From NCBI RefSeq assembly GCF_040436345.1, contig NC_133225.1:24114040-24178039 (forward strand): 64,000 nt of DNA, in the 5' to 3' direction. This DNA comes from Pagrus major (taxonomy: Eukaryota > Chordata > Actinopteri > Spariformes > Sparidae). The position numbers and the translations under genes are program-made. Below the pieces are notes generated by a model. That model saw nothing but the letters and a program-made list of their open reading frames with translations, was not told where the DNA came from and searched no databases. Below, one piece after another: positions 20 through 60,058 of this stretch (positions are counted from its first letter, which is position 1; every line of letters starts with the position of its first letter).

Positions 20-491
20 CCTCCACTTGATAGACTTCACACTCAGTCAGGTTGAGGTCGTTGCCATGCATCTCTGCAGCATTGAAGTTGTAATAATTTC
101 CTGGATTGTTATAGACAACAGGCTGGCTTCCATTGACAAGAACCAATGCTTCACCAAAATATGGACCAGAGTTACCAATCATTCTCACTGCATGAGCATG
201 ACTAGTGACCGGATATTTGAGGAGCTTTTCTCCACTGAAAGTGAAGAGAAAGGCCTGGTTATCATTCACATACTGTCCAGACTGACTGAAAGGTTGTTTG
301 GTGTAACCTCCAAACACAAAACCGGAGACGTTATAGCCCACAGACACTGTGGGACTGCAGTTGTCACATCGTTGGTGGAAGGCTGCTCCGGTGAAACCAT
401 GGATGCTGGCCTTGTACAGCAGCTGGAGTTTGACTCTCCCCAGCTGGGAGCAGATTGTTCTCTGCTGGCTCTTGGTCAGCCTGGGGTTCAT
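20..491 (-). CDS. ifi44-like: Copy 1: TLDc exon of an IFI44-like GTPase gene (partial, rest off left edge)
   Basis: This is the first coding exon of an interferon-induced protein 44-like gene. It is 472 nt, the same length as in every other TLDc copy here. The start codon is at 489-491 with A at -3. The exon ends in phase 1 at a GTGAGT donor (14-19). The frame is open throughout and encodes a TLDc domain, seen in the TGYVFGGYT-like stretch ([12 protein letters not shown]), the DNQAFLFTF strand and the GPYFGEA motif near residues 109-115. A noncoding leader continues to about 561. The linker and GTPase exons must lie left of the window, so completeness is unknown. The leader just upstream of the ATG is almost identical to that of copy 6 and different from copies 3-5, so copies 1 and 6 are probably sisters. 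Confidence 0.88.
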
Positions 492-9900: not shown

Positions 9901-11378
9901 ACACTAAACTGAGATTTTGACACTTGTGGATCTTCAATTTGCACTACTGTCTATTATTTGTCAGTTGGTGTTAAAAGAATATTTAAAAGAAAATTAGAGT
10001 CTTTAGGAATAACTGAGAGATTTAAATGACTATTGTGAGTGAAGCATTGAAGGCAGATATTGGCTCTTCAGACCAGGTCAATGAGTCTAAGTCTCAAGTA
10101 TGTCATTTTTTTGTGCAAGTCAAGTCACAAGTTGTGTCAAATTAAATCGAGTCCTTAGCTCAGGCAAGTCAAGTCACTCTTTCCCTACCCAAGAAACTCT
10201 TCAAAGAAAAAAGACAAGGTATTAGTACCTGTCAAATAATGATATTAATGAACAATTTAGCCTAATAGTGAATTGGATGTTTGTTGAGTTTGAGTGAAAT
10301 AAATACTGTATAATCAAACAAATACCTCAGAAAAGCTTTCTTAATTTCTTCTCAGTCAAAAAATATTCCTTCCCCGTCACCTTTAAAGAGTGAAATACTG
10401 ACGGTCGGACGACATAAAACGAATCTGAAAACATAACACGAACACAGACAAGTCGTTCATTCATTTGAATCGTCATGTCTCCAGTCAAGTCACAAGTACT
10501 TAATTTCTGTTGATTCAAGCTGCAAGTCATCAAAACCATGACTTGAGTTGACTGAGTCCACATTTCTGTCCAGTTCTAGTTTTACAGAGAAGTCAGTTTT
10601 CTGGTAATGACATTAATGGTACAACTTGTGTTTATTCTGGCAGAACCTCAACAAATTACAACTAAATAAGAATATTAGTTGGTAGCTTGGTGGAAGAAGA
10701 GTTTCCATTTTTTAAAATGCAACGTGTTTTAGTTTATGAAAACAGGAAAAAGGTCAATTCTCTTGTAGATAGGATCAATGTTCAGTCTAACTGTATCAGT
10801 TGCAGAAGTGTGACAGGAACAGTAATGATGAGGCCTGCCTTGTGCTTGATACAATCTGTTGGAAGCATGCTTAGGATCAATATTTGGTTGTTAAGAGAGA
10901 ACTCACCCTCCACTTGATAGACTTCACACTCAGTCAGATTGCGGTCGTTGCCATGCATCTCTGCTGCACTGAAGTTGTAATAACTTCCTGTACTGTTATT
11001 GACAACAGGCTGGCTTCCATTGACAAGAACCAATGCATCTCCAAAATGTGGACCAGCGTTACTATTCATTTTCACTGCATAAGCAGGACCAGTGACCGGA
11101 TATTTGAAGAGCTTCTCTCCACTGAAAGTGAAAAGAAAGGCCTGGTCATCATTAACATACTGTCCAGACTGACTGAAAGGTTGTTCGGTGTAACCTCCAA
11201 ACACAAAACCGGAGACGTTATAGCCCACAGACACTGTGGGACTGTGGTTGTCACATCGTTGGTGGAAGGCTGCTGCGGTGAAACCATGGATGCTGGCCTT
11301 GTACAGCAGCTGGAGTTTGACGCTCCCCAACTCGGAGCAGATTGTTCTCTGCTGGCTTCTGGTCAGCCTGGGCTTCAT
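3920..11378 (-). CDS. ifi44-like: Copy 2: IFI44-like TLDc-GTPase, complete, seven coding exons
   Basis: Coding exons, 5' to 3': 10907-11378, 9124-9172, 8756-8951, 6619-6771, 6332-6503, 4821-4921, 3920-4117. They join in frame to 446 aa, close to the length of human IFI44 and IFI44L. Residues 1-157 form the TLDc domain. A short linker exon (IPEFKKPWRPVVWENE) leads to the G domain: P-loop GPVGAGKSS at about 202-210, G3 DTMG at about 260-263, and G4 TKVD in exon 4821-4921 (reads LMTKVDEACPFV). The C-terminal exon ends SNIEIKEQ. IFI44 proteins are interferon-induced cytoplasmic GTP-binding proteins with antiviral or feedback roles. Copy 2 is the most diverged TLDc copy and its intron pattern differs from the others: intron 3 is short (172 bp against 1.1 kb), while introns 2 and 4 are long and carry repeats. 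A hAT-like fragment sits in intron 6. No premature stop was seen. Confidence 0.9.
5307..6000 (+). mobile_element. hAT-like element fragment with decayed transposase N-terminus
   Basis: The start is CAGGAGGGGCGGATTGGCC followed by a GGGACTTTTCCCGG block, which I recognise as the terminal sequence of a fish hAT-type repeat. Downstream, frame 5744 onward reads MENVGKKRKGGAEKQRDKEKK, a lysine-rich start typical of ZMYM1-like hAT proteins. After the A-run near 5800 the frame shifts by one base to an Ala/Ser-rich segment (from 5848) ending in EEQVEEDL at a possible donor (about 5991). The rest of the transposase is absent. The fragment lies in intron 6 of copy 2, antisense to the gene. It includes a short tandem repeat of a CCCTATGATAGG unit (about 5540-5605). 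Family assignment is from memory. Confidence 0.5.
7100..8130. repeat. Repeat-like insertion in intron 4 of copy 2
   Basis: Intron 4 is about 1.98 kb in copy 2 but only about 106 bp in copies 3-5, so about 1.9 kb has been gained here or lost there. A stretch near 7160-7270 (GACGTTTTTTTGTGGGCTAA, then CCAGAAGTTAGCTCGC) resembles a dispersed fish repeat. I found no transposase frame and no clear terminal repeats, so the limits are approximate. Confidence 0.35.
10070..10560. repeat. Dispersed repeat rich in CAAGTCAAGTCACAAG motifs
   Basis: This segment has many AAGTCAAGTCACAAG and GACTTGAG strings in both orientations (10105-10180 and 10480-10560), a composition typical of a common teleost interspersed repeat. 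It lies in intron 2 of copy 2, which is about 1.7 kb against about 240 bp in the other copies, consistent with insertion. Confidence 0.4.
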
Positions 11379-15202: not shown

Positions 15203-18200
15203 TCATTTTTTGACTTCAATGTTGCTCAATTGGTCGCTGATCTCATCGAAGTAATTATCAGCGAAGCGAAGCATCTGCTTGACGGCGCTGAGCAGCAGGA
15301 TGTCGCAGTTTGGGTCCAACTCCAACTCCTCACTGTAGTTCCTTACGGGAACAACACAGGACAGAGGCACACCGAGCCGAGTGCTGACCTCCTGCATCTG
15401 GATCACAAAAAGTTCAGATGAGGGTGATTTATAGTTTAGTTTTTCCCAAAGATTACAGAAAATTGTGCCAACTTTTGTAAAATCACAGCTAAATTTGTTT
15501 TGATTTGTCCTTTCAACTCTGGAATAAACGATGCCTATCCTACACCAGTCAAGTACTGTTATCTATCTAAATTAAATTACACACACTGATGGACAGACTT
15601 TGACTGGCTTGTCAGTTAAACGTATCAATTAAGGCCTAAAAACACACTACAAACCACAAATAATCAAATCTTATAGCATTTTTTCTTCTGTATAAAATCC
15701 TCACCATTTGCTTGATGTAGTCACTCTTATAAACGTTTCTCACGTCCTCTTTCACCAAAAGGCAGGCTTCATCTACTTTAGTGAGCAGGACCAGCTGAGG
15801 AATCCCTGAAAACACCAGAGAGAAAGAACATTTCCAAAATGCTGGAGATTTTTACAGTTTATAGGAATAAGCGACACATGTTTGTGCTAGTTATAACTTG
15901 ATAAATCACTAAAGATGATGTCAGCCTGTCAAAATATGATGGGGGCTCTTCTAAAGTAAAAATAAAAATCTGTTGCAATTTAAATGCCGTTTAATCGCAA
16001 TTCTAACAAATATATGTTTCTTTTTATAACTTTTCTTAAAACAATAACTTTTTAAGGGAAATCTATGTATCTAAAATCAATCTCTTGTTTACTGATTCAC
16101 TATTGCCTATATAACAAACACTAGAATCAATGGCCTGATCCCAATGTCCCCCTAAAGCCTTAAGCCCTCACAGACTAGGCTGACATCAGCTGGTTAGTGT
16201 TCGAGTGAGAGTCTGGAAGGGGTTGAAATGGTATAAGAGGGAATGGGACAGCACTTTGTGATCTTTCACTTCAGCTTGTAAGTTTGAGACCTTTAATTTG
16301 ATGTTTTAAAACATATATCCTCATAATAAAAACAAAGACCAGGAGTACATATAAACTCAGATGAAAACATATTCAGTCAGAGGTTTCAGGGGAAAAGTTT
16401 CATATTGCTTCAAATTTTTTTTGTTGTCTAATAAACTGAGTGATCTGCTTAAAAGAGTAGTGTCCTAAGACTTCAGTCTTTGATTTAGAAAATTCTCTAT
16501 TTGTGAATAAAAAATGTTGCATACAGAATAATGAAAGCATCCAGATTATTGTCATTTTTAAAAAAAGTGTTTTCTGGGTTACCCTGGTAACCCATGGTAA
16601 CCTTATGTTTAATGTTACAACGTGTTCAACTGTGTGTAATTCCCACAGGCAAAGTCTTCAGAAATGCGAACTTATGGGAAGTGGCCATAAGGGGCTAAAT
16701 GTCTGTGCGAGAGCCCTCAGTCACTTAAATATTGACAGTGTGACATCCCCGAACCCTCGTGGATTTACCATGAACACGCCTCAAAGTATGTGAGTGTTGA
16801 CATTGGAATTGGGCCAATTACACTCAAGTAAGCAGTGAATTGAGCTTTCAGACACTTACTAGTCATCATCATTTTGCATTGTTGGACAACTAATTTTACC
16901 ATTTATAAAATACAGAGCATCTCTGTGGATTGTTGGCAGAAAGTTGTGTGCGGCTGTAGCATGTATGTTGTACTATGCTGACATTGAGAAAGCAGACACC
17001 CATACTGCTACTTTCTAAGAGTGTGTGTGTATGTATATTAACTGACCCATTAAGTTGACCTTTCTGCGGATAGCTTCCAGCTTCTCCTCCAGCTTTGTGG
17101 GCATGATGGAGACTTTGCAGGCATCAACAACGTAGGCCACACAGTGGATCTTGTCCTTGAGCACTGGAAACTTACGATAGCCGTGGGCCTCCGTATCCAG
17201 AGGAACAGAGGGGTTGAACTGAGTCACACAGTTGAGGGGAAAGACAGAGACAGTTTGAGTTAACTAAAACCAAATCAATGGCTCATACATTCAATATCGT
17301 GCTCCATGTAACAAAAAGCTGTACCTGATATCGGTCTGGCAGATGACCTTTAAGGATATTGCTGATGTCATCAATATTAAGTCCAGACCCTGTGTTTTCC
17401 TCCAGTCCCATGGTATCACACAAGATGATTGGCAGAGGCTTTCCTTCTCGTCCAGCTTTCAAAGAGTAGGAGCGAAACTGTCTCGTACAAAGTGAAGGAA
17501 TAACAAATCACAAAACAGGGACAGGGCAGAATTTTCATTTTTAAAATCAGTCAAACAGAAATCATTAACTGTCAGGAACTGACCTGTGTGGTGAGGCTGG
17601 AGGTGGAGCTGCCAGAGATGGCCTGGCTGGTGACGTGGCCTCTGAATACAGAGTTAATAGAGTTGAAGAAGCTGGACTTTCCAGCTCCAACTGGTCCAAT
17701 GAACAGAACCCGAATCTGAGACACAAAGCTGACTGTGGGTTTGTAGCTCTTAATACTCTCCATCAGCTCTGTCCTCGTCCTGCAGGAACAAGTAAAGATA
17801 AATGACTTTTTCATTGACTGAATAACTTGTTTGTTGATTTAAGCCTGAAACAAAATTTCAGATGACATGTTTTGGCAAACGTTTGCCATTCAAACATAGT
17901 CACTGTATTATCTTAGGAAACTAAGCAATGCACTGCAGCAGATGGGGTCAGAAGCAAAATCTTTTAAAAAATATCAACCCAAAAAAATCACTATGAGTTG
18001 TAGCGGACATTATTTCTAGAATATTTTCACCATGATACATTTCTGTCTGACAGCTGTTTACGACGTGAAACTGAAGACCTTATATCTACACAATAACAAA
18101 AAACAAATTGACTGATCGAGGCAGCAATAGATCAGACTCTCCCGTGTTCTGTGAGGTACAATTACTGTTTTTGCCAAAAGAGTCTGGTTGCTTTGAACAG

Positions 18201-19660
18201 AGTGTAGAAGGATATACCAGCTTTAGATTCCTGTCTGACTGCAATATAAAATCGTGAAGATGTTCTAATAAAGTGTACACTGAATTTAATTTTTTTAGAT
18301 AGGCCTTTTTTATGGGTAAAAATTATGTTTTGCTGCAGCCCCAGTCAGCAGTACATTGCATAGCTTCCTACTCCTGTACTTCTGCTGCTTTTCCAAACTG
18401 GCGGCATGCTGACGACCATCTACTGTAGGCAGTACACCGACTATAGATAAATATTATACAGCCCCAATTCACAAGCTCACAATAGAAACAGGAAATGACA
18501 TTGAATTTTCAGCAGTGACTTGGGTTCTGTCCAATCACAGGCAAGGAGTGTTGTCTCACGTTTCCTTAATCCCAAATGTTGCTGTGTTCGATGTGTTTTG
18601 ACCCTTAGGGCCAAAGTAATATACTGTATGTGTGTTCATTATAACGTCATCTTGATTTACACATTCTGCTGTCTTTTCAGATCATCAATTTGCGTCATAT
18701 TGTATATGGAAGTATAGTATGGTATTGTATCATATTGTATCGTGTCGTATCATATTGTATAGTGATCTCTCTTGAAAATTATATGGCGGCGGGTCTCAAT
18801 AAGATTACCTGTCTGAGGTCAATAAAATATACTGTACTATAATGAAGCATGTTAATAGCATTGTGTGCAGGATGGCAGCTCTCTCCATCTTACTCAGATT
18901 CCCAGATTACAGTCCTCCATGGCTTCTCCAGTTCTGTGGTCTCTGTTGAAGAGCAAATACAACTTTTACGAAACAATGATCTCATCAAATTTGATAAATG
19001 TATTGCCCATATATACAACTTGTTTTTGTTTACTTTGTGATGGGTTTACATTCACTTTAAATCCTAAATCACCTGTGGGCCAACACAGTGTTGGGAGGTT
19101 TAAGGGAAAAAACAAAACTGATCGCTAATTGATTTATGACAACAACAAAAACAAAAAACCAACATGTGTTTATTTTTATCGAACTCACCCTCCACTTGAT
19201 AGACTTCACACTCAGTCAGATTGAGGTCGTTGCCATGCATCTCTGCAGCATTGAAGTTGTAATAATTTCCTGGATTGTTATAGACAACAGGCTGGCTTCC
19301 ATGGACAAGAACCAATGCTTCACCAAAATATGGACCTGCGTTACCAATCATTTTCACTGCATGAGCATGACTAGTGACCGGATATTTGAGGAGCTTCTCT
19401 TCACTGAAAGTGAAAAGAAAGGCCTGGTCATCATTCACATACTGTCCAGACTGACTGAAAGGTTGTTTGGTGTAACCTCCAAACACAAAACCGGAGGCAT
19501 TATAGCCCACAGACACTGTGGTCCCGCGGTTGTCACATCGTTGGTGGAAGGCTGCTCCGGTGAAACCATGGATGCTGGCCTTGTACAGCAGCTGGAGTTT
19601 GAATCTCCCCAGCTGGGAGCAGATTGTTCTCTGCTGGCTTCTGGTTAGTTTGGGGTTCAT
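15203..19660 (-). CDS. ifi44-like: Copy 3: IFI44-like TLDc-GTPase, complete, seven coding exons
   Basis: Coding exons, 5' to 3': 19189-19660, 18894-18942, 17584-17779, 17325-17477, 17047-17218, 15705-15805, 15203-15397. They join in frame to 445 aa. The TLDc domain is residues 1-157 and the linker [16 protein letters not shown] is about 159-174. P-loop GPVGAGKSS is 202-210, G3 DTMG 260-263 and G4 TKVD 356-359. The C-terminal exon has [17 protein letters not shown] and ends EVKK. The start codon has A at -3 and no upstream ATG was seen in the leader (19661-19729 plus exon 1). Predicted role: an interferon-inducible GTP-binding protein. It is nearly identical to copies 4 and 5 outside a patch at residues 97-108 and 120. 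Copy-specific changes include Glu at residue 88 in the SEEKLL stretch and Phe in SFVSQ before the P-loop. Confidence 0.93.
16347..16560. repeat. Unnamed interspersed repeat in intron 6 of copy 3
   Basis: It starts around CAGTCAGAGGTTTCAGGG and runs through AATAAACTGAGTGAT to GAATAATGAAAGCATCCAGA. Equivalent copies lie in intron 6 of copies 4 (about 26054-26250) and 5 (about 36525-36700). Unlike the genes, related sequence also occurs inverted at 44736-44870 and direct at 59110-59290, outside any gene copy. It is therefore more likely a mobile repeat than simply intron sequence. Family unknown. Confidence 0.45.
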
Positions 19661-21016
19661 AGTGGACAGATGGTTTTCTAGTGTGTAAAGGATGCTGAGA
19701 AGACCTTTGCTGTTTACTCACTTTGGAGTCTGAAATACAAAAAGATGTACACAGATTCATTAAAAGTACAGGATATAATGTAGGTTGTCTTTATTTCAGT
19801 CTGTTCCCAACATCTCCTAAACTGTAGCACTCAGTACTTAGTAACTGTTTTTTTCAAAAAATATATATGTAAGAGTAATGATGGAAAAGGTCTGTGGTGC
19901 AAATACTGAATGATCTTTGAAATTCTCTCAGTGAAAACTATTAGTGCTAAAAAAGAACACAATTGCCAAAAAAATAAAAACACTGATAAAATCATCACTA
20001 AACTACAAAAACAAACAGCAATAAAATAACCATTCAAACAATAACATTACAAACTTACCCATATTTTAAATTCAAAATATAGTTTACTTCATCCTATATA
20101 TTTCTGAACTGGGAATGAGTGGATCAGAAGAAAGATTAATTTACTTGTTGTTGATAAATGTTCTAATTGATGAATTGTGTTATAAACACAGTGCATATGT
20201 AAGTTGGTCCAGTAGCTGCTGTCATCAAATATACATATAAATTAAAGATCAACAAATGTTTCCCTGTATCAAAGTTTAAAGGCCTTATTTGTAGAAATGT
20301 TGTTTCCAACACATGTGAGATATTACAAACTCTATATTTAATGAAACATTCAAAAAGCAGTCTTATTTTAAACACTGGATGTCCTGCATATTTAGCAACC
20401 TTGCCACAGATTCTGACGGAACCTGTAAATATTTTCTCTCAAAAGAAAAGGGGTTTACCACATCCTGAGAGCTCGTGCCTACATTAGGCTTTACAATAAC
20501 TTTCGATTTCCTGGAAACGTTTTGCCACACCTAAATTATTACAGACTGCAGCTGCTATAATAAGACATAAGGGTTTTTGTCAAAATGTGTTTTAACATCT
20601 TTGAACTATTGCCAATTTATTTTAGAATCATATTAAAATCGTATTAACTTTTTAATAACTACGTATTTACGTAGTCTCCATCGGTTTAAATCAGTGAACA
20701 GCTCATCGTTCTTGTATCTGTTCCTATCAAGGTTAAAATAAAATAAAACAAAAGAAAATACATGGGGTGATCAACACTCTCCAGTTTCGGGGGTAGACTG
20801 TAATCCAGACAAAGTACACTCGAAGTTTAGAAATAAGGTACACAGTAACCTGTAAACATAAACTTACAGTAACCTGTAACAGTAACCTGTAAACATGAAC
20901 TTAAGCAAAGTTAGAATTCTGCCAAACCTTCAGTCACCAAATCAAATAAAGCCTTCAAAGGTCACTGGCTAACAAGAAAATCTTAATATAAATCCTTGAA
21001 TCTTTTTCATCCTTAC

Positions 21017-28100: not shown

Positions 28101-29150
28101 TCACCTTTCCTTAATCCCAAATGTTGCTGTGTTTGATGTGTTTTGACCCTTAGGGCCACAGTTATGTTATGTTATGTATGTGGATCGTATTCATTATAAC
28201 GTCATCTTGAGTTACACATTCTGCTGTCTTTTCAGATCATCACTTTGTGTCATACTGTATATGGAAGTATAGTATGGTATTGTATCATATTTATTGGGTC
28301 TCAACAAGATTACCTGTCTGAGGTCAATAAAATATACTGTACTATAATGAAGCATGTTAATAGCATTGTGTGCAGGTTGGTGGCTCTCTCCATCTTACTC
28401 AGATTCCCAGATTACAGTCCTCCATGGCTTCTCCAGTTCTGTGGTCTCTGTTGAAGAGCAAATACAACTTTTAACAGACAATGATCTCATCAAATTTGAT
28501 AAAGACATATATACAACTTGTTTTTTTAATCTTGTGATGGGTTTACATTCACTTTAAATCCAAAATCACCTGTGGGCCAACACAGTGTTGGGAGTTTAAG
28601 GGAAAGAACAAAACTGGTCACTAATTGATTTATGACAACAACAAAAAATCAACATGTGTTTGTTTTTATTGAACTCACCCTCCACTTGATAGACTTCACA
28701 CTCAGTCAGATTGAGGTCGTTGCCATGCATCTCTGCAGCATTGAAGTTGTAATAATTTCCTGGATTGTTATAGACAACAGGCTGGTTTCCATAGACAAGA
28801 ACCAATGCTTCTCCAAAATATGGACCAGAATTAACAATCATTCTCACTGCATAAGCATGAGTAGTGACCGGATATTTGAGGAGCTTCTCTCCACTGAAAG
28901 TGAAAAGAAAGGCCTGGTCATCATTCACATACTGTCCAGACTGACTGAAAGGTTGTTTGGTGTAACCTCCAAACACAAAACCAGAGGCATTATAGCCCAC
29001 AGACACTGTGGTCCCGCGGTTGTCACATCGTTGGTGGAAGGCTGCTCCGGTGAAACCATGGATGCTGGCCTTGTACAGCAGCTGGAGTTTGAATCTCCCC
29101 AGCTGGGAGCAGATTGTTCTCTGCTGGCTTCTGGTTAGTTTGGGGTTCAT
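25136..29150 (-). CDS. ifi44-like: Copy 4: IFI44-like TLDc-GTPase, complete, seven coding exons
   Basis: Coding exons, 5' to 3': 28679-29150, 28399-28447, 27183-27378, 26920-27072, 26643-26814, 25645-25745, 25136-25333. They join in frame to 446 aa, ending EVKKL. TLDc is residues 1-157, P-loop GPVGAGKSS 202-210, DTMG 260-263 and TKVD 356-359. Compared with copies 3 and 5 it differs mainly in the TLDc patch ([14 protein letters not shown], residues 97-110) and at LVYGNQP (118-124). Exon 7 begins with Asp (DIPQ) where all other TLDc copies have Gly (GIPQ), because of a change in the split codon. Intron 4 carries sequence like copy 6 (GGGCAGGACATACGTTTTGA) instead of the copy 3/5 version, hinting at exchange between lineages. 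Its promoter is separated from exon 1 by a 904-bp insertion. Confidence 0.93.
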
Positions 29151-30450
29151 AGTGGACAGATGGTTTTCTAGTGTGTAAAGGATGCTGAGAAGACCTTTGC
29201 TGTTTACTCACTTTGGAGTCTGAAATACAAAAAGACGTACACAGATTCATTAAAAGTACAGGATATAATGTAGGTTGTCTTTATTTCAGTCTGTTCCCAA
29301 CATCTCCTAAACTGTAGCACTCATTTACAGTACAGTAAATGTTTTTTTGTTTTTTTTAAAATATATGTAAGAGTAATGATGGAAATGGTCTGTGGTGCAA
29401 ATACTGAATGATCTTTAAAATTCTCTCAGTGAAAACTATTAGTGCTAAAAAAGAACACAATTACCAAAAAATAAAAACACTGATAAAATCATCACTAAAC
29501 TACAAAAACAAACAGCAAGAAACCATTCAAACATTAACATTACAAACTTACCCATATTTTAAAATCAAAATATAGTTTAGTTCATCCTATATATTTCTGA
29601 ACTGGGAATTAGTGTATCAGAAGAAACATTAATTTACTTGTTGCTGATAAATTTTCTAATTGATGAATTGTCTTATAAACACAGTGCATATGTAAGTTGG
29701 TCCAGTAGCTGCTGTCATCAAATATACATATATATTAAAGAGCAACAAATGTTTCCCTGTATCAAAGTTTAAGGGCCTTATTTGTAGAAATGTTGTTTCC
29801 AACACATGGGAGATGTCCTGCATATTTAGCAACCTTGCCACAGATTCTGACGGAAACTGTAAATATTTTCTCTCAAAAGAAAAAAAGAAGTTTGCCACAT
29901 CCTGAGAGCTCGTGCCTACATTAGGCTTAACAATAACTTTCGATTTCCTGGGAACGGTTTGCCACACCTAAATTATTACAGACTGCAGCCGCGATAATAA
30001 GACACAAGGGTTTTTGTCAAAATGTGTTTTAACATCTTTGCACTATTGCCAATTTCTTTTAGAATCATATTAAAATCGTATCAATTTTTTAATAATTACG
30101 TAGTCACGTAGTCTCCATCGGTTTAAATCAGTGAACAGCTCATTATTCTTGTATCTGTTCCTATCAAGGTTAAAATAAAACAAAACAAAATACATGGGGT
30201 GATCAACACTCTCCAGTTTCAGGGGTAGACTGTAATCTGGACAAAGTATGCTCGAAGTTTAGAAAAAAGGTACACAGTAACCTGTTAACATAAACTTACA
30301 GTAACCTGTAACAGTAACCTGTAAACATGAACTTAAACAAAGTTAGAATTCTGCCAAACCTTTAGTCACCAAATCAAATAAAGCCTTCAAAGGTCACTGG
30401 CTAACTAGAAAATCTTAATATGAATCCTTGATTATCTTTTTCATCCTTAC

Positions 30451-38400: not shown

Positions 38401-39468
38401 TTAATCCCAAATGTTGCTGTGTTTGATGTGTTTTGACCCTTAGGGCCACAGTAATATACTGTATGTTCATTATAACGTCATCTTGATTTACACATTCTGC
38501 TGTCTTTTCAGATCATCACTTTGTGTCATATTGTATATGGAAGTATAGTATGGTATTGTATCATATTGTATCGTGTCGTATCATATTGTATAGTGATCTC
38601 TCTTGAAAATTATATGGCGGCAGATCTCAATATGATTATCTGTCTGAGGTCAATAAAATATACTGTACTATAATGAAGCATGTTAATAGCATTGTGTGCA
38701 GGATGGCAGCTCTCTCCATCTTACTCAGATTCCCAGATTACAGTCCTCCATGGCTTCTCCAGTTCTGTGGTCCCTGTTGAAGAGCAAATACAACTTTTAC
38801 AAAACAATGATCTCATCAAATTTGATAAATGTATTGTTTTTGTTTACTTTGTGTTGGGTTTACATTCACTTTAAATCCTAAATCACCTGTGGGCCAACAC
38901 AGTGTTGGGAGTTTAAGGGAAAAAACAAAACTGATCGCTAATTGATTTATGACAACAACAAAAGAAAAAAAACGTGTTTATTTTTATTGAACTCACCCTC
39001 CACTTGATAGACTTCACACTCAGTCAGATTGAGATCGTTGCCATGCATCTCTGCAGCATTGAAGTTGTAACAATTTCCTGGATTGTTATAGACAACAGGC
39101 TGGCTTCCATTGACAAGAACCAATGCTTCTCCAAAATATGGACCAGAGTTACCAATCATTTTCACTGCATGAGCATGACTAGTAACCGGATATTTGAGGA
39201 GCTTTTCTCCACTGAAAGTGAAAAGAAAGGCCTGGTCATCATTCACATACTGTCCCGACTGACTGAAAGGTTGTTTGGTGTAACCTCCAAACACAAAACC
39301 GGAGGCGTTATAGCCCACAGACACTGTGGTCCCGCGGTTGTCACATCGTTGGTGGAAGGCTGCTCCGGTGAAACCATCGATGCTGGCCTTGTACAGCAGC
39401 TGGAGTTTGACTCTCCCCAGCTGGGAGCAGATCGTTCTCTGCTGGCTTCTGGTTAGTTTGGGGTTCAT
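35416..39468 (-). CDS. ifi44-like: Copy 5: IFI44-like TLDc-GTPase, complete, seven coding exons
   Basis: Coding exons, 5' to 3': 38997-39468, 38725-38773, 37482-37677, 37223-37375, 36945-37116, 35921-36021, 35416-35610. They join in frame to 445 aa. The architecture matches copy 3: TLDc 1-157, P-loop GPVGAGKSS 202-210, DTMG 260-263, TKVD 356-359. It is the closest paralogue of copy 3 in exons, introns and flanks. Copy-specific changes include GNCYNF (Tyr to Cys) in TLDc, SQAQVLF before the P-loop, and SEALGY where the other copies have SEAHGY or TEAHGY. Its promoter keeps the IRF-like motif at the usual distance. Two hAT-type insertions lie further upstream (41.0 and 42.2 kb). Confidence 0.93.
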
Positions 39469-40812
39469 AGTGGACAGATGGTTTTCTAATGTGTAAAGGA
39501 TGCTGAGAAACCCTTTGCTGTTTACTCACTTTGGAGTCTGAAATACAAAAAGATGTACACAGAATCATTAAAAGTACAGGATATAATGTAGGTTGTCTTT
39601 ATTTCAGTCAGTTCCCAATATCTCCTTAACTGTAGTACTCAGTACTTAGTAAATGTTTTTTTTTTAAATATATGTAAGAGTAATGATGGAAAAGGTCTGT
39701 GGTGCAAATACTGAATGATCTTTGAAATTATCTCAGTGAAAACTATTAGTACTAAAAAAGAACACAATTACCAAAAAAATAAAAACACTGATAAAATCAT
39801 CACTAAACTACAAAAACAAACAGCAATAAAATAACCATTCAAACAATAACATTACAAACTTACCCATATTTTAAATTCAAAATATAGTTTAGTTCATCCT
39901 ATATATTTCTGAACTGGGAATGAGTGGATCAGAAGAAACATTAATTTACTTGTTGTTGATAAACGTTCTAACTGATGAATTGTGTTATAAACACAGTGCA
40001 TATGTAAGTTGGTCCAGTAGCTGCTGTCATCAAATATACATATAAATTAAAGAGCAACAAATGTTTCCCTGTATCAAAGTTTAAAGGCCTTATTTGTAGA
40101 AATGTTGTTTCCAACACATGGGAGATATTACAAACTCTATATTTAATGAAACATTCAAAAAGCAGTCTTATTTTTAAACACTGGATGTCCTGCATATTTA
40201 GCAACCTTGGCACAGATTCTGACGGAACCTGTAAATATTTTCTCTCAAAAGAAACACACACCCTGAGAGCTCGTGCCTACATTAGGCTTTACAATAACTT
40301 TCGATTTCCTGGGAACGGTTTGCCACACCTAAATTATTACAGACTGCAGCCGCGATAATAAGACACAAGGGTTTTTGTCAAAATGTGTTTTAACATCTTT
40401 GCACTATTGCCAATTTCTTTTAGAATCATATTAAAATCGTATTAACTTTTTAATAATTACGTTTACGTAGTCTCCATCGGTTTAAATCAGTGAACAGTTC
40501 ATCGTTCTTGTATCTGTTCCTATCAAGGTTAAAATAAAATAAAACAAAAGAAAATACATGGGGTGATCAACACTCTCCAGTTTCGGGGGTAGACTGTAAT
40601 CCGGACGAAGTATGCTCGAAGTTTAGAAATAAGGTACACAGTAACCTGTTAACATAAACTTACAGTAACCTGTAACAGTAACCTGTAAACATGAACTTAA
40701 ACAAAGTTAGAATTCTGCCAAACCTTTAGTCACCAAATCAAATAAAACCTTCAAAGGTCACTGGTTAACTAGAAAATCTTAATATAAATCCTTGAATCTT
40801 TTTCATCCTTAC

Positions 40813-47734: not shown

Positions 47735-49356
<1,622 letters not shown>

Positions 49357-50942
49357 TAATACCTTCCTGGATTGTTATAGACTACAGGCTGATTTCCATT
49401 GACAAGAATCAATGCTTCGCCAAAATATGGACCTGAGTGACTATACATTTTCACTGCATATGTGGGAACAGTGACCGGATATTTGAGGAGTTTTTCTCCA
49501 CTGAAAGTGAAAAGAAAGGCCTGGTCATCATATGTGTACCCTCCAGACTGATTGAAAGGTTGTTTGGTGTAACCTCCAAACACAAAACCAGAGACGTTAT
49601 AGCCCACAGACACTGTGGGACTGCGGGTGTCACATCGTTGGTGGAAGGCTGCTCCGGTGAAACCATGGATGCTGGCCTTGTACAGCAGCTGGAGTTTGAC
49701 TCTCCCCAGCTGGGAGCAGATCGTTCTCTGCTGGCTCTTGGTCAGCCTGGGGTTCATAGTGACAGTTGATCCGCTGAAGTGTGTGAAGAATGCTGAATGA
49801 ACCTTAGATGTCTATTTACACAAAGACACACAGATACAAAAAAAAACCCTTGAATATGTAGATTAATTGAATTTGGTTAATCCCACTGGATAACTATCAT
49901 CATGGTCGCACCCAGTGTTCAAGGTTGTTTGTAAAGTCATAAAAGTGACTCTCCTTATCCTCCTGAACAAACAATACTGATTCAAGAACACAAGAAATAT
50001 TTATTACCATATTCATTCATTATCAGGTCAGACTTTATTATCAGGTCAAGAGGTACGAGCACACCTAACAGAGAAGAACTGATCATGAATTAGTTTACCT
50101 GTCACTTTATGGAAACGAGGTAAAAATCTTGAATTTAAAAATTGAAGAAAATACTGTAGGATGGTGTGGTAAATGAAACTGATTTTACCCTGTACTCTAG
50201 ACATCAGATTTAAAAACTGGGCAACATCTCTGATAGAAAAATTGTTGTGGCCCAGATCTGCCCAACAAGAGAAACAATCATCTGGCCCACAGGACATGGG
50301 TGGTCCACACTTGTTTCCCAGATCTGAGCCACAAGCAGGCCATACCATGTCCTGTGTCAGCCAAGAGTGAACTGAATAAACCAGAACTAGAAATGTCATG
50401 TTTTCACTGTATCAAAGTTTAAAACCCCTACTTGTGAAATGTTTTTAATTAAATGCTATAATACCTTTTTCACTTGAATCAAATATTCAGTCTTGAAGAA
50501 CATAATATATAAAATAAAGTTGTTATTTAATTTACTTTGGATTGCTCCTCTATTCCTCCTCAGATGTATCTTAGTTTCATCTCTCCATTTACTGAAATGT
50601 GCAAAAAAAGTCTTATCTTAAACATCAGATGTCCTGTATTTCAGCAACCATGGCAGATTCTCAAAAAGACTCTCAAAAAACAAACAAAAACCAACAACAA
50701 AAAAAATTACAAAAGGTTTGCCACACCTTGATAGGCCTGCCAACTTTAAGGGTGGGGTAGGCCCTTGATTTGTAGGGCGTCCAAGTTTAGTTTGTTGCAG
50801 AAAAATACACCTGAACTAAGTCACAACTGTGCCATTCCTCAGTCTCAAAAATCAATGAAGCCTTACAAATCCCATTGGCTAACTTTACATTAGAGTATGA
50901 CAAAATCTGAAATCCTTTAATATTATCCTTACCTCCTTCTTA

Positions 50943-53101: not shown

Positions 53102-55456
53102 TCAAATGCATTCGTCTTCGTATTGTGGTGTATTGTCCTGGAAATACAGGTCAGCATACTGCAGGATGTGGTCGATAGCACTAAGCAGAAGCACGTCAGT
53201 GCTCACATCCAGGTCCAACTCTGACGAGTAGTTCTTCACTGGGATGATGTAGGAGGTGGACATACCCAACATAGCTCCAGCTTTACCCATCTGCAAACAC
53301 ACCCAAACACGTGTGACTTTAATATTTTCACATCATCAATGTTCAGTTTCTGCAGCTGGTTGAAAACAAGGCCATGGCAAATTGGGGCATAGACACTAAG
53401 GTTGCCACAGTGATGAAATTATCCCACCGACTAATAAGTTTGTGACAACACCAATAATACCCGGTCCACTGGACTTTTTACAGGAAAAGATGCTCTCCAA
53501 ATAATCTCCTATATTCTCTCAGTTTCAAAATGATCCAGACATGAGGGAATCTGATAGCTCAGAGTTTCTAATTTTTGGAAATGTAAGCATAACAAAATCC
53601 TAAAATAATGTGCAGACACATTCTGTTCAGACAGTTAGTTACTGTGATTTGTTTTGACCTTACCACCCCTTTCCACACATGTAATGTAGGCAAACTCTTA
53701 AAGCAACTCTGAAGTAAGATGGATGATTTTTGAGTCTCATTCTCAGGTCGTCAAATACCTCAAATACATGAACATTTCTCAAACAGCGTATTGTTTATTT
53801 AAACCTACCATGTCCTGAATGATGCGGCTCTTGTAAACCTGGGTGACATCTTTGGCTGTTTCTGGACAAATTTGGTCTATGTGGGTCAGCAGAGCCACCT
53901 GGTGAACACCTAATGGACAGAATGTGATATATATATTATTAAGGTTTCAGCACAATAATCACAGAAACAGCATTTAATTGTTACATTCTAGATTGATTCT
54001 GGATAAATTATTGACAATTAAGATATATTTCAGAAGATGTACTGTATAACAAAAGTGTCAAACCCCACGCCATTCTGCACATCAGTCCAACAAAAACTAG
54101 TAGTTGTCAGTAAAATCTTTGATGCAATACCACTTAAATGTCAAAACAATTCAAACAAAAATCACAGTAATACACTGACAGAAGAACAGCTGTTCCACTT
54201 TGTTTTCACTTAAAACACAAAAATGCTACTGATGTGGGAGGAACAATATGTGTCTGTGTGTGAAAATATTTGTGTGTGCAGCTGCTTGTTTGTCCTTTTC
54301 TTACCCAAGTCACTGATGTGCTCTCTGAGCTGCTGGAAGGTGGTGCTGAGGCCTTTGGGGTAGCACGCGATTTTAGAGGCGTTCACCACAAAGGCCACAC
54401 AGTGGATCTTTTCTTTCAGGCTTGGCCTCTTCACATAGCCCACAGTCTCAGACCTCACTGGTTGATCTGGGCTAAACTAAAGGGAAAAATGACAAATCGT
54501 TTTCAAAAAACAACTCACGTTACATTCCAGCATTTTATAATTAGCACTAAACACAAGGTACAGCTGTGTTGAATTGGAAAAATTGAAAATTTGACCTAAT
54601 GATGGTGCTAGATGACAAGTCAGAGGATCACCAAAGTTCTTACAATTATAAGCATGAATGTTTTTACTGAATTTCATGCTAATCCACCCAATAGTGGTCG
54701 AGACATTTCTCTCACAACCACAAATCTTAACCTCACGGTGGAGCTAGAGGAAAAGTCAGAGGCTCACAAAATCATTAGGACTCATCCTCTGAGAACCAGA
54801 ATTTTGTGCCAGTTCATTAAGTAGTTGTTGAGATGTCTGACGCAAACAACTAATCAACAATATTGATCCTGCTTACCTTGTGTCCCTCAGGTACATGTCC
54901 TCTAATGATGGACAGGGCGTCATGGAGGGTCAATCCGGTCATCTCTCCATCCCCCAGGCCCATAACGTCACACAGCACCAGTCTGTTAGGATCCTCTCCT
55001 TTCTGACCACGAATGTTGAAGGACTGCAGCTGACACGGACAGAAAGAAAGTTAACTGGGTGGAATCCTAAAGCATGAGAACAGCCTCCCTACTGATTGAG
55101 GGCTTATGCCACTGTCCAACAAACTTGAAACATCTTTGTTCAGTGTCTTGTCTGTATCCAAATTTTAATCTTTGTTAATTTTGTTGTATTTCAGTTGTCA
55201 TCTTTAAACAATCTTGGAAAGCATCGGGTGTTGTCTGACAACAAGTTAGCCTACTGATGAAATGGCCAGTGTTTTTGGGGCTTCTGGTGCAGCCAGTTGA
55301 TATCTTGATAACATATCCAAACAAAGACTTCCCCTTTAATGTGCCAGTTATTGTTTACAGACCAGTTAGAAATGTTGGCTATAGTCTGACTCTGATTCAG
55401 CTAATACTGTGTATCTGCATAATAATAGAGATACATTTTTAACAACGAAAATAACA

Positions 55457-55491
<35 letters not shown>

Positions 55492-57999
55492 AATATAAGC
55501 CACATGGACAGACTTTGACAACGTAATAAAGCACTGGGAAAAAGAAAACAGCCTCTGGGTGTTTTTCCTTTTTTGCGTTTATTGATAAGACACCGTCCTG
55601 AATCTAATAGGGAATCACTGCCTTGCTCAAAGAAAGACAACCAGCAATGAATTTCAGCTCTCAATTACATATGAGTGCTCCATTTATACCTTCTTGGTGA
55701 AGCTGGTGGAGGAGGAGCCCACCATGGCCCGGTTGCTGACTCGTCCATTAAACACCGACTGGACTGAACTGATGAAGCTGGACTTCCCAGAACCGACTGG
55801 GCCCAAGAGGAGAACCCGAGCCTGAGTCACCTCTTTACTGCTTGGCCTGTAGGAGCTGACAGTCTTCATCAGGGTCGTCTTTTGTCTTGAGGAGAATTCA
55901 AGAAAATTGCTTTGAATAATAATCTAAATAAGCAGAATAAAGGCATGAGGGGAGTATAATAAAATAACTAATAAAAACTATTTTAAAAAGTGCAAGCTTG
56001 ACCGAATGTCACAGCTTTACTCACTCTTCTGTCCACTCCACGTCTCTCCATTGAGATTCCAACTTTCCAAAAGGTTCAGCTCCTGAAGAGTTTAAGAGTT
56101 GATGATGATTAAAGTGCATCCAATTGGATGTATTTTTCTAATTCTATTGATAAGTGTCAAACCATGCAGTGATACCACTTCCAGATATTTACAGAAGCTG
56201 CAATAAAGAAGTCTCGACTTTTAATTATTTTAACTTTTCACACTCTACGACAAGTTTACACAAGATTAAACATGAATGAAGACACTAAATACAGACACTA
56301 GAGACACTTCTGTTCATAATATTGAAGCTTTGTCTTATTGAAGAGATATATTCATTGTGAGTATGCAGAGGCAATAAACTAGCCGTCAAATATACTGTAA
56401 AGTGACACCAGGCTGGTTACCTACCTCACTGTAATAAAAACAACGGAAGCATAGAGAAAAACAAATACAGGTAATACAGGTAAGTTGGAGTATGCAAATA
56501 TAAGGCGGGAGAGTACAGGGATTACAGCTGTCCAACTTTATTACTGTCACTAGACAATAAGAGGTTTCATTATACTGAGGAGCAGCAGTTCAGGAAAGCT
56601 CCCAAGATTATTAGAGGTCAATTTGATGCACATGAAGACCCTTTTCCTTTTCTCTGTTTTTGGAGCATGTATTAACTGTTTGGAAAACCACAACACAGCA
56701 TCCAAACATTGGAGAAGAACTGTAACCTTTCTGCAGTGCATATTCAGTGGTACTACCAGACTATTTATATGGCATGGAACTGTTTAGTAGCTTACCTGAG
56801 AATGTAAAAGGTTTGTCCTCCATGTTCACAGTTGAACTGGTGGCTTTAACTTTGCTGAGACTCTTGTTAAAGGCTCTACACAAAGATTCTCTCCCCCCAT
56901 CTTCGGCGGCTGCTGCCATGCCAAAGGCAGGTTGGGCTGTAGAAGCTAAACCAAATGAAAAGCCTCGGAAGCTGAAGAGAGGAAGTAATCATATGCACAG
57001 TTAAAGCCAAGTAGCAGAAATTAACTGAATTATAACACTACATATGTGACCAAATAGTGTGATGTAAAATCGCTGCATTGGTGAGATGGAAAGAGAAAGC
57101 TGAGTAGGTTTCCTAAAGACAAATAAGCCAACTCTATCCACTCGAGTTTTGTAATGCAATTGGACTTGGAATAAATATAGTAATGCTTTCAGATTGTAGG
57201 ACGGGTCGGCCACCATCCAAAAGCATCATGTTTTGAGTTGGGAATGAGACTCAAAAATCTATTTTTCATACAAATACCACCTTTAAGACAAACTGTGACT
57301 TTATTGACTTTAAAAAATATCTTTTAAATTGACAAACATCATATGTGTAGTTCATGGCACAATTCAAGCAGGATCAAAAAACTGATGAAACTGTGTTGTC
57401 CATTAAGTTCAGTTTGTTTCATCAGTTTTATAAGTCATGAAAAAAAGTTTGTTTATTTAGCTTGTTTGGGCATAACAAAAAAAAACAGTGGATGGAGATA
57501 TTTCCCTTCTTATTAAAATTTCTTCCCCAAAACTACATGGTGCACCATTAATTTGATCATTTATATCATTTATATTGCAATGTGCATTGTATAGCCTAGA
57601 CACGCCCAGCGTCAACAGATGAACATTAGCAGTGTGTTATATCTGCGCCAGTACATTTATTGTTCACTGTCTCTGTGTAAAATGGACCAATAAACGTATA
57701 AAGTCTCTGACGCAGTTCAAGTTTAAAAACGACGGAAGATGACGTCAAGTCAACGTCAAGCTAGCTAACTAATGCTAAATATCACCCAGTTTAACTCCGC
57801 TCTCCAAGCTTTCAGAGAAGTTTACAGAGCTGTTGACAGTCTCCCACACAGTGAATACAATACACAATTACCACAGGTTAGTAATTCACCTGAACTGCCA
57901 CCCTTTGTGAAACTGAACTCTTGCTGAGTCTACCTGCCAAACTTCACTCTTTGAGAAATATTACCTGCGTTTTGCCGTTTCTCCGGTATCTTTCTGCAT
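53102..57999 (-). CDS. ifi44-like: Copy 7: divergent IFI44-like GTPase without TLDc, complete, eight exons
   Basis: Exons, 5' to 3': 57965-57999, 56796-56971, 56025-56082, 55690-55885, 54877-55029, 54305-54476, 53809-53909, 53102-53290. They join in frame to 359 aa. The four GTPase exons after the linker have exactly the lengths of the TLDc copies (196, 153, 172, 101 nt), confirming common origin. The N-terminus (residues 1-71) is unrelated to TLDc; it is Ala/Ser-rich with FSFGLAS and PAFGMAAAA. The linker is WRDVEWTEE, the P-loop GPVGSGKSS is 118-126, and G3 is DVMG at 176-179. G4 is THID at 272-275, where the TLDc copies have TKVD. The start at 57999 has A at -3. A short out-of-frame upstream ORF begins 14 nt earlier (58013) and overlaps the start. 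It is probably an interferon-induced GTP-binding protein of the IFI44 family. Confidence 0.88.
55449..55494. repeat. (AAT)n microsatellite in intron 4 of copy 7
   Basis: A run of about ten AAT units passes into GATAAT units. Confidence 0.9.
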
Positions 58000-59374: not shown

Positions 59375-60058
59375 AACGGTCAATGGAAACCAAAATCATC
59401 ACAGCGTCTCGAGACTCTTTCACACCTGTCACATGTGCCCAGTGTGAACCTGCTGTCATCTGTGAAGAGAACGGGGTGCCAATGGTGGACCTGCCAATTC
59501 TGGTGTCCTCTCGTGAATGCCAAACGAGCTGAATGGTGCTGTGCTGGTCCTGTTTCTCCTCACGCAAAAGAGCAGATGCTGTTTCTGCTGCTGGCTTGAT
59601 GCCCTTCTACAGCCCTGTCCAGCTCTCCTTGTGTAACGGCCAGTCTCCTGGTATCTCATCCATGCTCTTGAGACTGTGCTGGGAGACACAGAGAACCTTC
59701 TTGCGACCGCACATATGGATGTGCCATCCTGGAGGAGCTGAACTACCTGTGCAACCTGATTGGGCTGCAGGTACCGCCTCATGCTACCATTAGTGACAAG
59801 GACACTAGCAGAACACAAAACTAGAGAAGGATGAGGAGAGAGCAACTGTCTGTGGCCTCCATGTGCAAAACCATTCCCTTTTGGGGGTTGTCTTGCTTTT
59901 GCCTCTCCATTGCACCGGTTGTCACTTTCATTTGAACCAAAGCAGGTGAAACTGATTCACAATCACTTGTGCTTCCTGAATGGACTGATTGATATCCCTG
60001 AACTGACCTGGTGTTATACTGTGACAATTAAGTGTTCGCTTAATTTTTTTGAGCAGTC
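59375..60058 (-). pseudogene. Decayed Tc1-like transposase remnant
   Basis: The frame from 59845 reads GSMRRYLQPNQVAQVVQLLQ and then SICAVARRFSVSPSTVSRAW, the DNA-binding part of a second Tc1 family, different from the one in copy 6. It then jumps by internal deletion and frameshift to a stretch resembling the FTD-containing catalytic region (about 59400-59470). The right end at about 60030-60058 (TTAATTTTTTTGAGCAGTCT) resembles the terminal repeat of that family. The left end was not identified. Confidence 0.7.

Follow-up and report, generated by a model that had tools for sequence, protein, structure and literature searches.

The dense patch of differences between two neighbouring copies of a tandem TLDc+GTPase gene array was read, with a probability of about 0.6, as a boundary of mosaic structure within an immune array that evolves in concert, at which a tolerant segment of the TLDc domain lies at the edge of inferred gene-conversion tracts. 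Tandem copies would exchange DNA, and conversion between them would have made the 5' part of the TLDc exon uniform; the segment for residues 97-122 would have kept older differences or taken short pieces from copies beyond the window (the whole stretch of 64,000 nucleotides from Pagrus major analysed here). Differences retained or imported in this way would be mostly amino-acid changes because the segment appears to tolerate replacement (omega near 1, vs about 0.5 in codons 1-96), and positive selection would not be needed for the abrupt contrast between copies 3 and 4. This combination of a mosaic boundary and locally relaxed constraint was preferred because the family tree of the copies differs between the two sides of the patch's 5' edge and a shared tract of 453 nt stops 4 nt short of the patch. 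If correct, the locus illustrates how a tandem immune array under concerted evolution can imitate positive selection: where the shared tract stops, differences rise abruptly, mostly as replacements.

Six TLDc first coding exons were located on the minus strand, with start codons at 491, 11378, 19660, 29150, 39468, and 49757 (copies 1-6). Linker and GTPase exons followed the TLDc exon in the same order in copies 2-6, and the remainder of the copy 1 gene lay beyond the window edge. The first coding exon of copy 3 (19189..19660, minus strand; 157 codons, ATG at 19660, splice donor after 19189) was defined by its reading frame and by Pfam PF07534, which scored 60.3 bits (cut-off 24.5) over residues 11-156. 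Exons e2-e7 of copy 3, encoding the linker and the GTPase (15206..18946, minus strand), were placed by tblastn with approximate boundaries at 18946-18893 (e2), 17787-17584 (e3), 17483-17325 (e4), 17218-17042 (e5), 15809-15705 (e6), and 15397-15206 (e7). The joined GTPase exons of copy 3 matched MMR_HSR1 at 25.5 bits (cut-off 21.9), and the P-loop GPVGAGKSS seen in this copy was found throughout copies 2-6. The array is thus one of tandem TLDc+GTPase genes, called IFI44/IFI44L-like for this domain pair alone, which we take to be the domain make-up of IFI44/IFI44L. The likeness to IFI44/IFI44L (also TLDC5) comprises the N-terminal TLDc (PF07534) and the C-terminal GTPase; the ISRE-like sites that precede copies 3-5 may point to interferon-inducible expression. 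A seventh, more distant GTPase gene (53123-55893, minus strand) had 31-52% identity to copy 3 over e3-e7, with a weak e2-like match at 56065-56024; tblastn found no TLDc exon upstream of it.

Over the TLDc exon, copies 3 and 4 differed at 12 of 471 nt, namely at nt 168, at nt 260, and then at ten positions within 76 nt (290-365). These 10 of the 12 differences fell in codons 97-122 of copy 3 (19295..19372, minus strand), the core codons 97-108 of which occupy 19337-19372, and codons 123-157 were without any difference between the two copies. Nine codons of the patch were changed; the residue was altered in seven (97, 100, 103, 106, 108, 120, and 122) and the change was silent in two (107 and 113). 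A scan statistic for 10 of 12 differences within 78 nt gave p 0.0001 with 20,000 permutations and 0.0003 in a rerun with 3,000; only these scan p values count, because the patch was picked from the same sequences. The differences are therefore clustered beyond chance, as the sequence-only reading had proposed for these near-identical copies. Near-identical 10-kb tandem units of this kind are prone to misassembly, and collapsed or switched copies could in principle give such a pattern; this explanation, like chance clustering, was judged very improbable in view of the scan result and of a reading frame that is uninterrupted in copies 1-5 and as far as a transposon in copy 6. Compared with copies 3 and 5, copy 4 had seven nucleotide states of its own in the patch, six of them residue-changing, and one in the rest of the exon (codon 56, silent).

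The corresponding patches lie, all on the minus strand, at 126..203 in copy 1, 11013..11090 in copy 2, 28785..28862 in copy 4, 39103..39180 in copy 5, and 49392..49469 in copy 6; residues 97-108 read SHAHAVRMIGNS in copy 1, GPAYAVKMNSNA in copy 2, and VPTYAVKMYSHS in copy 6. The residues 97-108 that had been quoted for copies 2-6 were exact (copy 1 had been left unlisted), and residue 120 was H, Y, or N as claimed. The flanks had been described as invariant, which applied to KYPVT on one side; on the other, GPYFG was shared by five copies, with GPHFG instead in copy 2. Among the six copies, residues 97-100, 103, and 105-108 varied, and residues 101, 102, 104, 109, 110, 112, and 113 were invariant. 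Many of the copy 6 states in the patch were unique. When the 78-nt scan was applied to all 15 copy pairs, p was below 0.05 in five (1-6, 3-4, 3-6, 4-6, and 5-6), each with its peak starting at codon 97, and was not below 0.05 in the other ten.

Amino-acid change across the six copies was concentrated at the same place. The densest 12-codon window of the exon started at codon 97 (13 changes vs a mean of 3.75, p = 0.003), and 26-codon windows also peaked at codon 97 (p 0.005). The densest windows for silent change started at codon 102 for 12 codons (5 vs 1.76, p = 0.73) and at codon 88 for 26 codons (p 0.20). When the coding exons of copies 2-6 were joined (454 codons), the top 12-codon window for amino-acid change lay at the C-terminus (start 443), a stretch in which copy 6 deviates, and 8 of the 12 top windows started at codons 94-103; the 26-codon maximum was at codon 97 (p 0.04), and the silent 26-codon maximum started at codon 265 (p 0.02).

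Evidence for a boundary came from an alignment of the three closest units (copies 3, 4, and 5) over 21060-18300 in copy 3 coordinates. At the 157 variable sites, the odd copy was copy 4 in 73 cases, copy 3 in 45, and copy 5 in 36, with three states at the remaining 3. A segment scan for agreement of copies 3 and 4 against copy 5 delimited a shared tract of 453 nt (19376..19828, minus strand), probably a conversion tract, within which copy 5 was odd at 15 of 18 sites vs 21 of 136 outside it, a contrast that 0 of 1000 permutations matched. The tract begins in upstream non-coding DNA, and its last site is 4 nt from the start of the patch and 5 nt from the first patch difference (19371). In a single-breakpoint parsimony scan over 74 variable sites of the six copies, the best cut fell at nt 267-289, which is the 5' edge of the patch (86 steps vs 90 for the unbroken alignment; 1 of 500 permutations as good). 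The partition into codons 1-96 and 97-157 was matched in 0 of 3000 permutations, and that of the patch against the rest gave p = 0.027. Seven of the 14 informative sites in codons 1-96 split copies 1, 2, and 6 from copies 3, 4, and 5, and 7 of the 13 in codons 97-138 split copies 2 and 6 from the rest. A PHI-like neighbour test gave p = 0.063, and incompatible site pairs numbered 20 of 45 within the patch, 49 of 153 within the rest, and 109 of 180 between patch and rest. Recurrent mutation could mimic part of this mosaic signal, since the permutation treats sites as exchangeable.

Gene conversion, which the sequence-only reading had offered as an alternative to selection, thus held in part. 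The near-identical tract of copies 3 and 4 ending just before the patch and the breakpoint in the tree both favour it; the spread of one patch among the copies was not seen. The copy 4 states ACT at codon 97, GTT at codon 106, AAT at codon 107, and TAT at codon 120 occurred in none of the other five copies, so that a donor for its patch would lie outside the window or the changes would be new, and no donor for the variable segment of copy 4 or copy 6 was found among the six copies of the window. The patch may also have changed later, within a single longer tract shared by copies 3 and 4, because these are identical again over codons 123-157.

Diversifying selection, in which residues 97-108 and 120-122 would form a surface contacting a partner or pathogen and replacements would have been favoured once copies 3 and 4 had been made uniform, was considered possible but unproven, at about one chance in four. 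The states peculiar to copy 4, nearly all residue-changing inside the patch, and an amino-acid peak beyond chance beside a silent peak that is not speak for it. Against it, a comparison of copies 3 and 4 showed the patch to be as dense in silent changes as in replacements. The NG86 counts for this pair were S 3.0/18.2 and N 7.0/59.8 in the patch (pN/pS 0.71), S 1/85 and N 1/308 in the rest of the TLDc exon, and S 11.5/200 and N 9.5/691 in exons e2-e7. The patch exceeded the rest of the exon in silent divergence (3/18.2 vs 1/85, Fisher p 0.016). Divergence in alignable non-coding DNA was 300/4892, and against this value the small number of silent changes in the exon outside the patch was not significant by itself (p 0.062). 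Over the 15 pairs, pN/pS in the patch ranged from 0.29 to 3.69 and was above 1 in 4 of 14, one pair being undefined as it had no silent change; in 14 of 15 pairs, all but copies 1-5 (0.017 vs 0.031), pN in the patch exceeded pN in the rest.

Codon models gave omega significantly above 1 only when the silent rate was held equal. Under that model, omega was 3.19 or 2.40, depending on the tree, for codons 97-108 and 1.88 or 1.52 for codons 97-122; it exceeded 1 on both trees for the shorter segment (2 dlnL 13.6 and 6.7), and the corresponding values for codons 97-122 were 5.2 and 2.1. With the silent rate free, omega was 1.51 or 1.16 (97-108) and 1.16 or 0.95 (97-122), not significantly above 1, and a rate-only model nearly equalled an omega-only model in fit (0.1 to 0.8 lnL apart). 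On a single tree, over six topologies, omega was 0.84-1.05 for the patch vs 0.47-0.52 for the rest. M2a brought no gain over M1a on two trees (2 dlnL 2.77 and 0.01; p 0.25 and 0.995). When a separate tree was used for each side of the breakpoint, omega was 0.49 for codons 1-96, 0.89 for codons 97-108, 0.92 for codons 97-122 (grid values of 0.5-2 kept), and 0.47 for codons 123-157. The neutral-scaled tree length was 1.38 for the patch, 0.77 for codons 1-96, and 0.63 for codons 123-157. The sequence-only reading had favoured diversifying selection and had named a dN/dS at or below 1 in this segment as counter-evidence, and in that respect the own-tree estimates and the M1a/M2a comparison went against it. 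In a power check with 30 simulations at each true omega (1, 2, and 3), estimates of 0.92 or less were obtained in 40% of simulations at omega 1 and in 0 of 30 at both 2 and 3; the omega test called selection in 53% of simulations at omega 2 and 67% at omega 3. An omega of at least 2 over the whole patch was rejected as unlikely, because no simulation at 2 or 3 gave a value as low as the own-tree estimate. Selection on a few patch residues is possible.

Non-coding DNA was used as a further yardstick for the density of the patch. Only 2 of 1760 overlapping gap-free 78-nt non-coding windows reached 10 differences (mean 3.09), and the end of the tract alone does not account for the patch, which is denser than nearly all of these windows. 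Compared with non-coding divergence, the patch total gave p 0.028 for copies 3-4, 0.12 for copies 4-5, and 0.34 for copies 3-5, values uncorrected for the choice of the patch; patch replacements gave p = 0.10, a further point against diversifying selection. Dense copy 4 clusters in intron 1 and a dense variable cluster upstream were rejected as proof that the patch is ordinary; they sit at indels and low-complexity runs, and gap-free windows seldom match the density of the patch, so that such a use of them would be over-reading. A drifting loop, produced by relaxed constraint or a local mutation hotspot only and with no conversion, would fit an omega near 1 and the raised total rate in the patch, and was considered unlikely, as it leaves unexplained both the tree breakpoint and the tract shared by copies 3 and 4 from the upstream non-coding DNA onwards.

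The position of the patch in the domain was approached through known TLDc proteins. In phmmer searches, the TLDc exon matched mEAK-7 (E 0.0016), NCOA7 (0.013), and zebrafish OXR2 (4acj; 0.038), which by sequence share the same TLDc domain; unlike that shared part, the patch lies past the end of the match, the matched stretches of TLDc-type PDB matches stopping at or before residue 95. A PDB search with the 3' part of the exon gave one weak unrelated match. An AlphaFold2 model built on six rows was unusable for placing the surface loop suggested by the sequence-only reading (mean pLDDT 42.6); its strands at 89-94 and 99-106 give no more than a hint of a hairpin. The pattern of invariant and variable residues would fit an exposed strand edge with V102 and M104 buried.

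The mEAK-7 TLDc domain contacts V-ATPase subunits E, A, and B through Gly276, His277, Pro316, Gln317, Tyr341, Thr354, Tyr367, and Lys384 (PMC9263379). Gly276, His277, Pro316, and Gln317 align to residues 32, 33, 72, and 73, and whether Tyr341, Thr354, Tyr367, and Lys384 fall inside the patch depends on the alignment. In a hand alignment on the FG motif, codons 97-111 correspond to mEAK-7 residues from about 342 to 367, a stretch that holds contacts with subunits A (Thr354) and E (Tyr367) and adjoins Tyr341, with Tyr341 at T96 and Tyr367 at Y111. The MAFFT mapping was discarded as unreliable (gaps of about 11 and 25 columns); it put A108 opposite Tyr341, P124 opposite Thr354, and either a gap or N129 opposite Tyr367. 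That the patch is a TLDc recognition surface, diversified by short conversion tracts that leave the remaining domain uniform, was judged improbable. If it were true, the manner or even the presence of binding to V-ATPase, or to a pathogen protein that blocks or mimics V-ATPase, would vary among the copies, and a patch proven to be a binding surface would name residues for the partner of IFI44-type TLDc domains. Two peptide patterns run against viral contigs gave 99 pattern matches and 0 relatives.

Tandem families such as MHC genes show gene-conversion mosaics around variable segments. The present array resembles them in having a tree breakpoint and an identity tract beside a variable coding segment, and differs in that a binding function of the segment, or selection on it, is only a possibility here. 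IFI44 is reported to be expanded in anchovy, with copy number variable among the species compared (PMC13403563), and to belong to the conserved salmon-human set of interferon-stimulated genes (PMC13030082). Its putative TLDc domain is given as 15% identical to other TLDc proteins (PMC5614904), and five TLDc proteins are tested in PMC8608904, the main text of which has 0 occurrences of ifi44. Among the non-subscription papers searched, those that mention both IFI44 and 'gene conversion' dealt with other subjects, as judged by title and abstract start, so that mosaics in IFI44 arrays may have received little description so far.

Upstream of copy 3, an ISRE-like site (GAAATCGAAAG; 20500..20510, minus strand) lies 850 nt from the ATG, and equivalent sites on the same strand were identified by comparing distances and flanks at 29937-29947 (copy 4) and 40298-40308 (copy 5). 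The putative site GGAAATCGAAAGTT is common to the three copies, in which it stands 797-850 nt upstream of the ATG. Across the window, 12 ISRE-like matches were counted vs 2.06 expected, with repeat copies counted apart.

The copy 6 TLDc exon is interrupted in codon 134, 3' of the patch, by a Tc1/mariner-type element of 1,622 bp (47735..49356, minus strand) with identical inverted ends (27 bp as printed), a TA duplication, and HTH_SB and Tc3_2 domains; because of this interruption, copy 6 is probably translated only in part. Elements of the Tc1 type fit a fish genome. An open frame at 59456-59956 (minus strand) with helix-turn-helix domains, the best being HTH_7, is perhaps a second transposon fragment. 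A second cluster of changes found only in copy 6 occupies TLDc codons 69-76 (49553-49530; S69N, Q73G, V75T, and N76Y), where Pro316 and Gln317 of mEAK-7 align.
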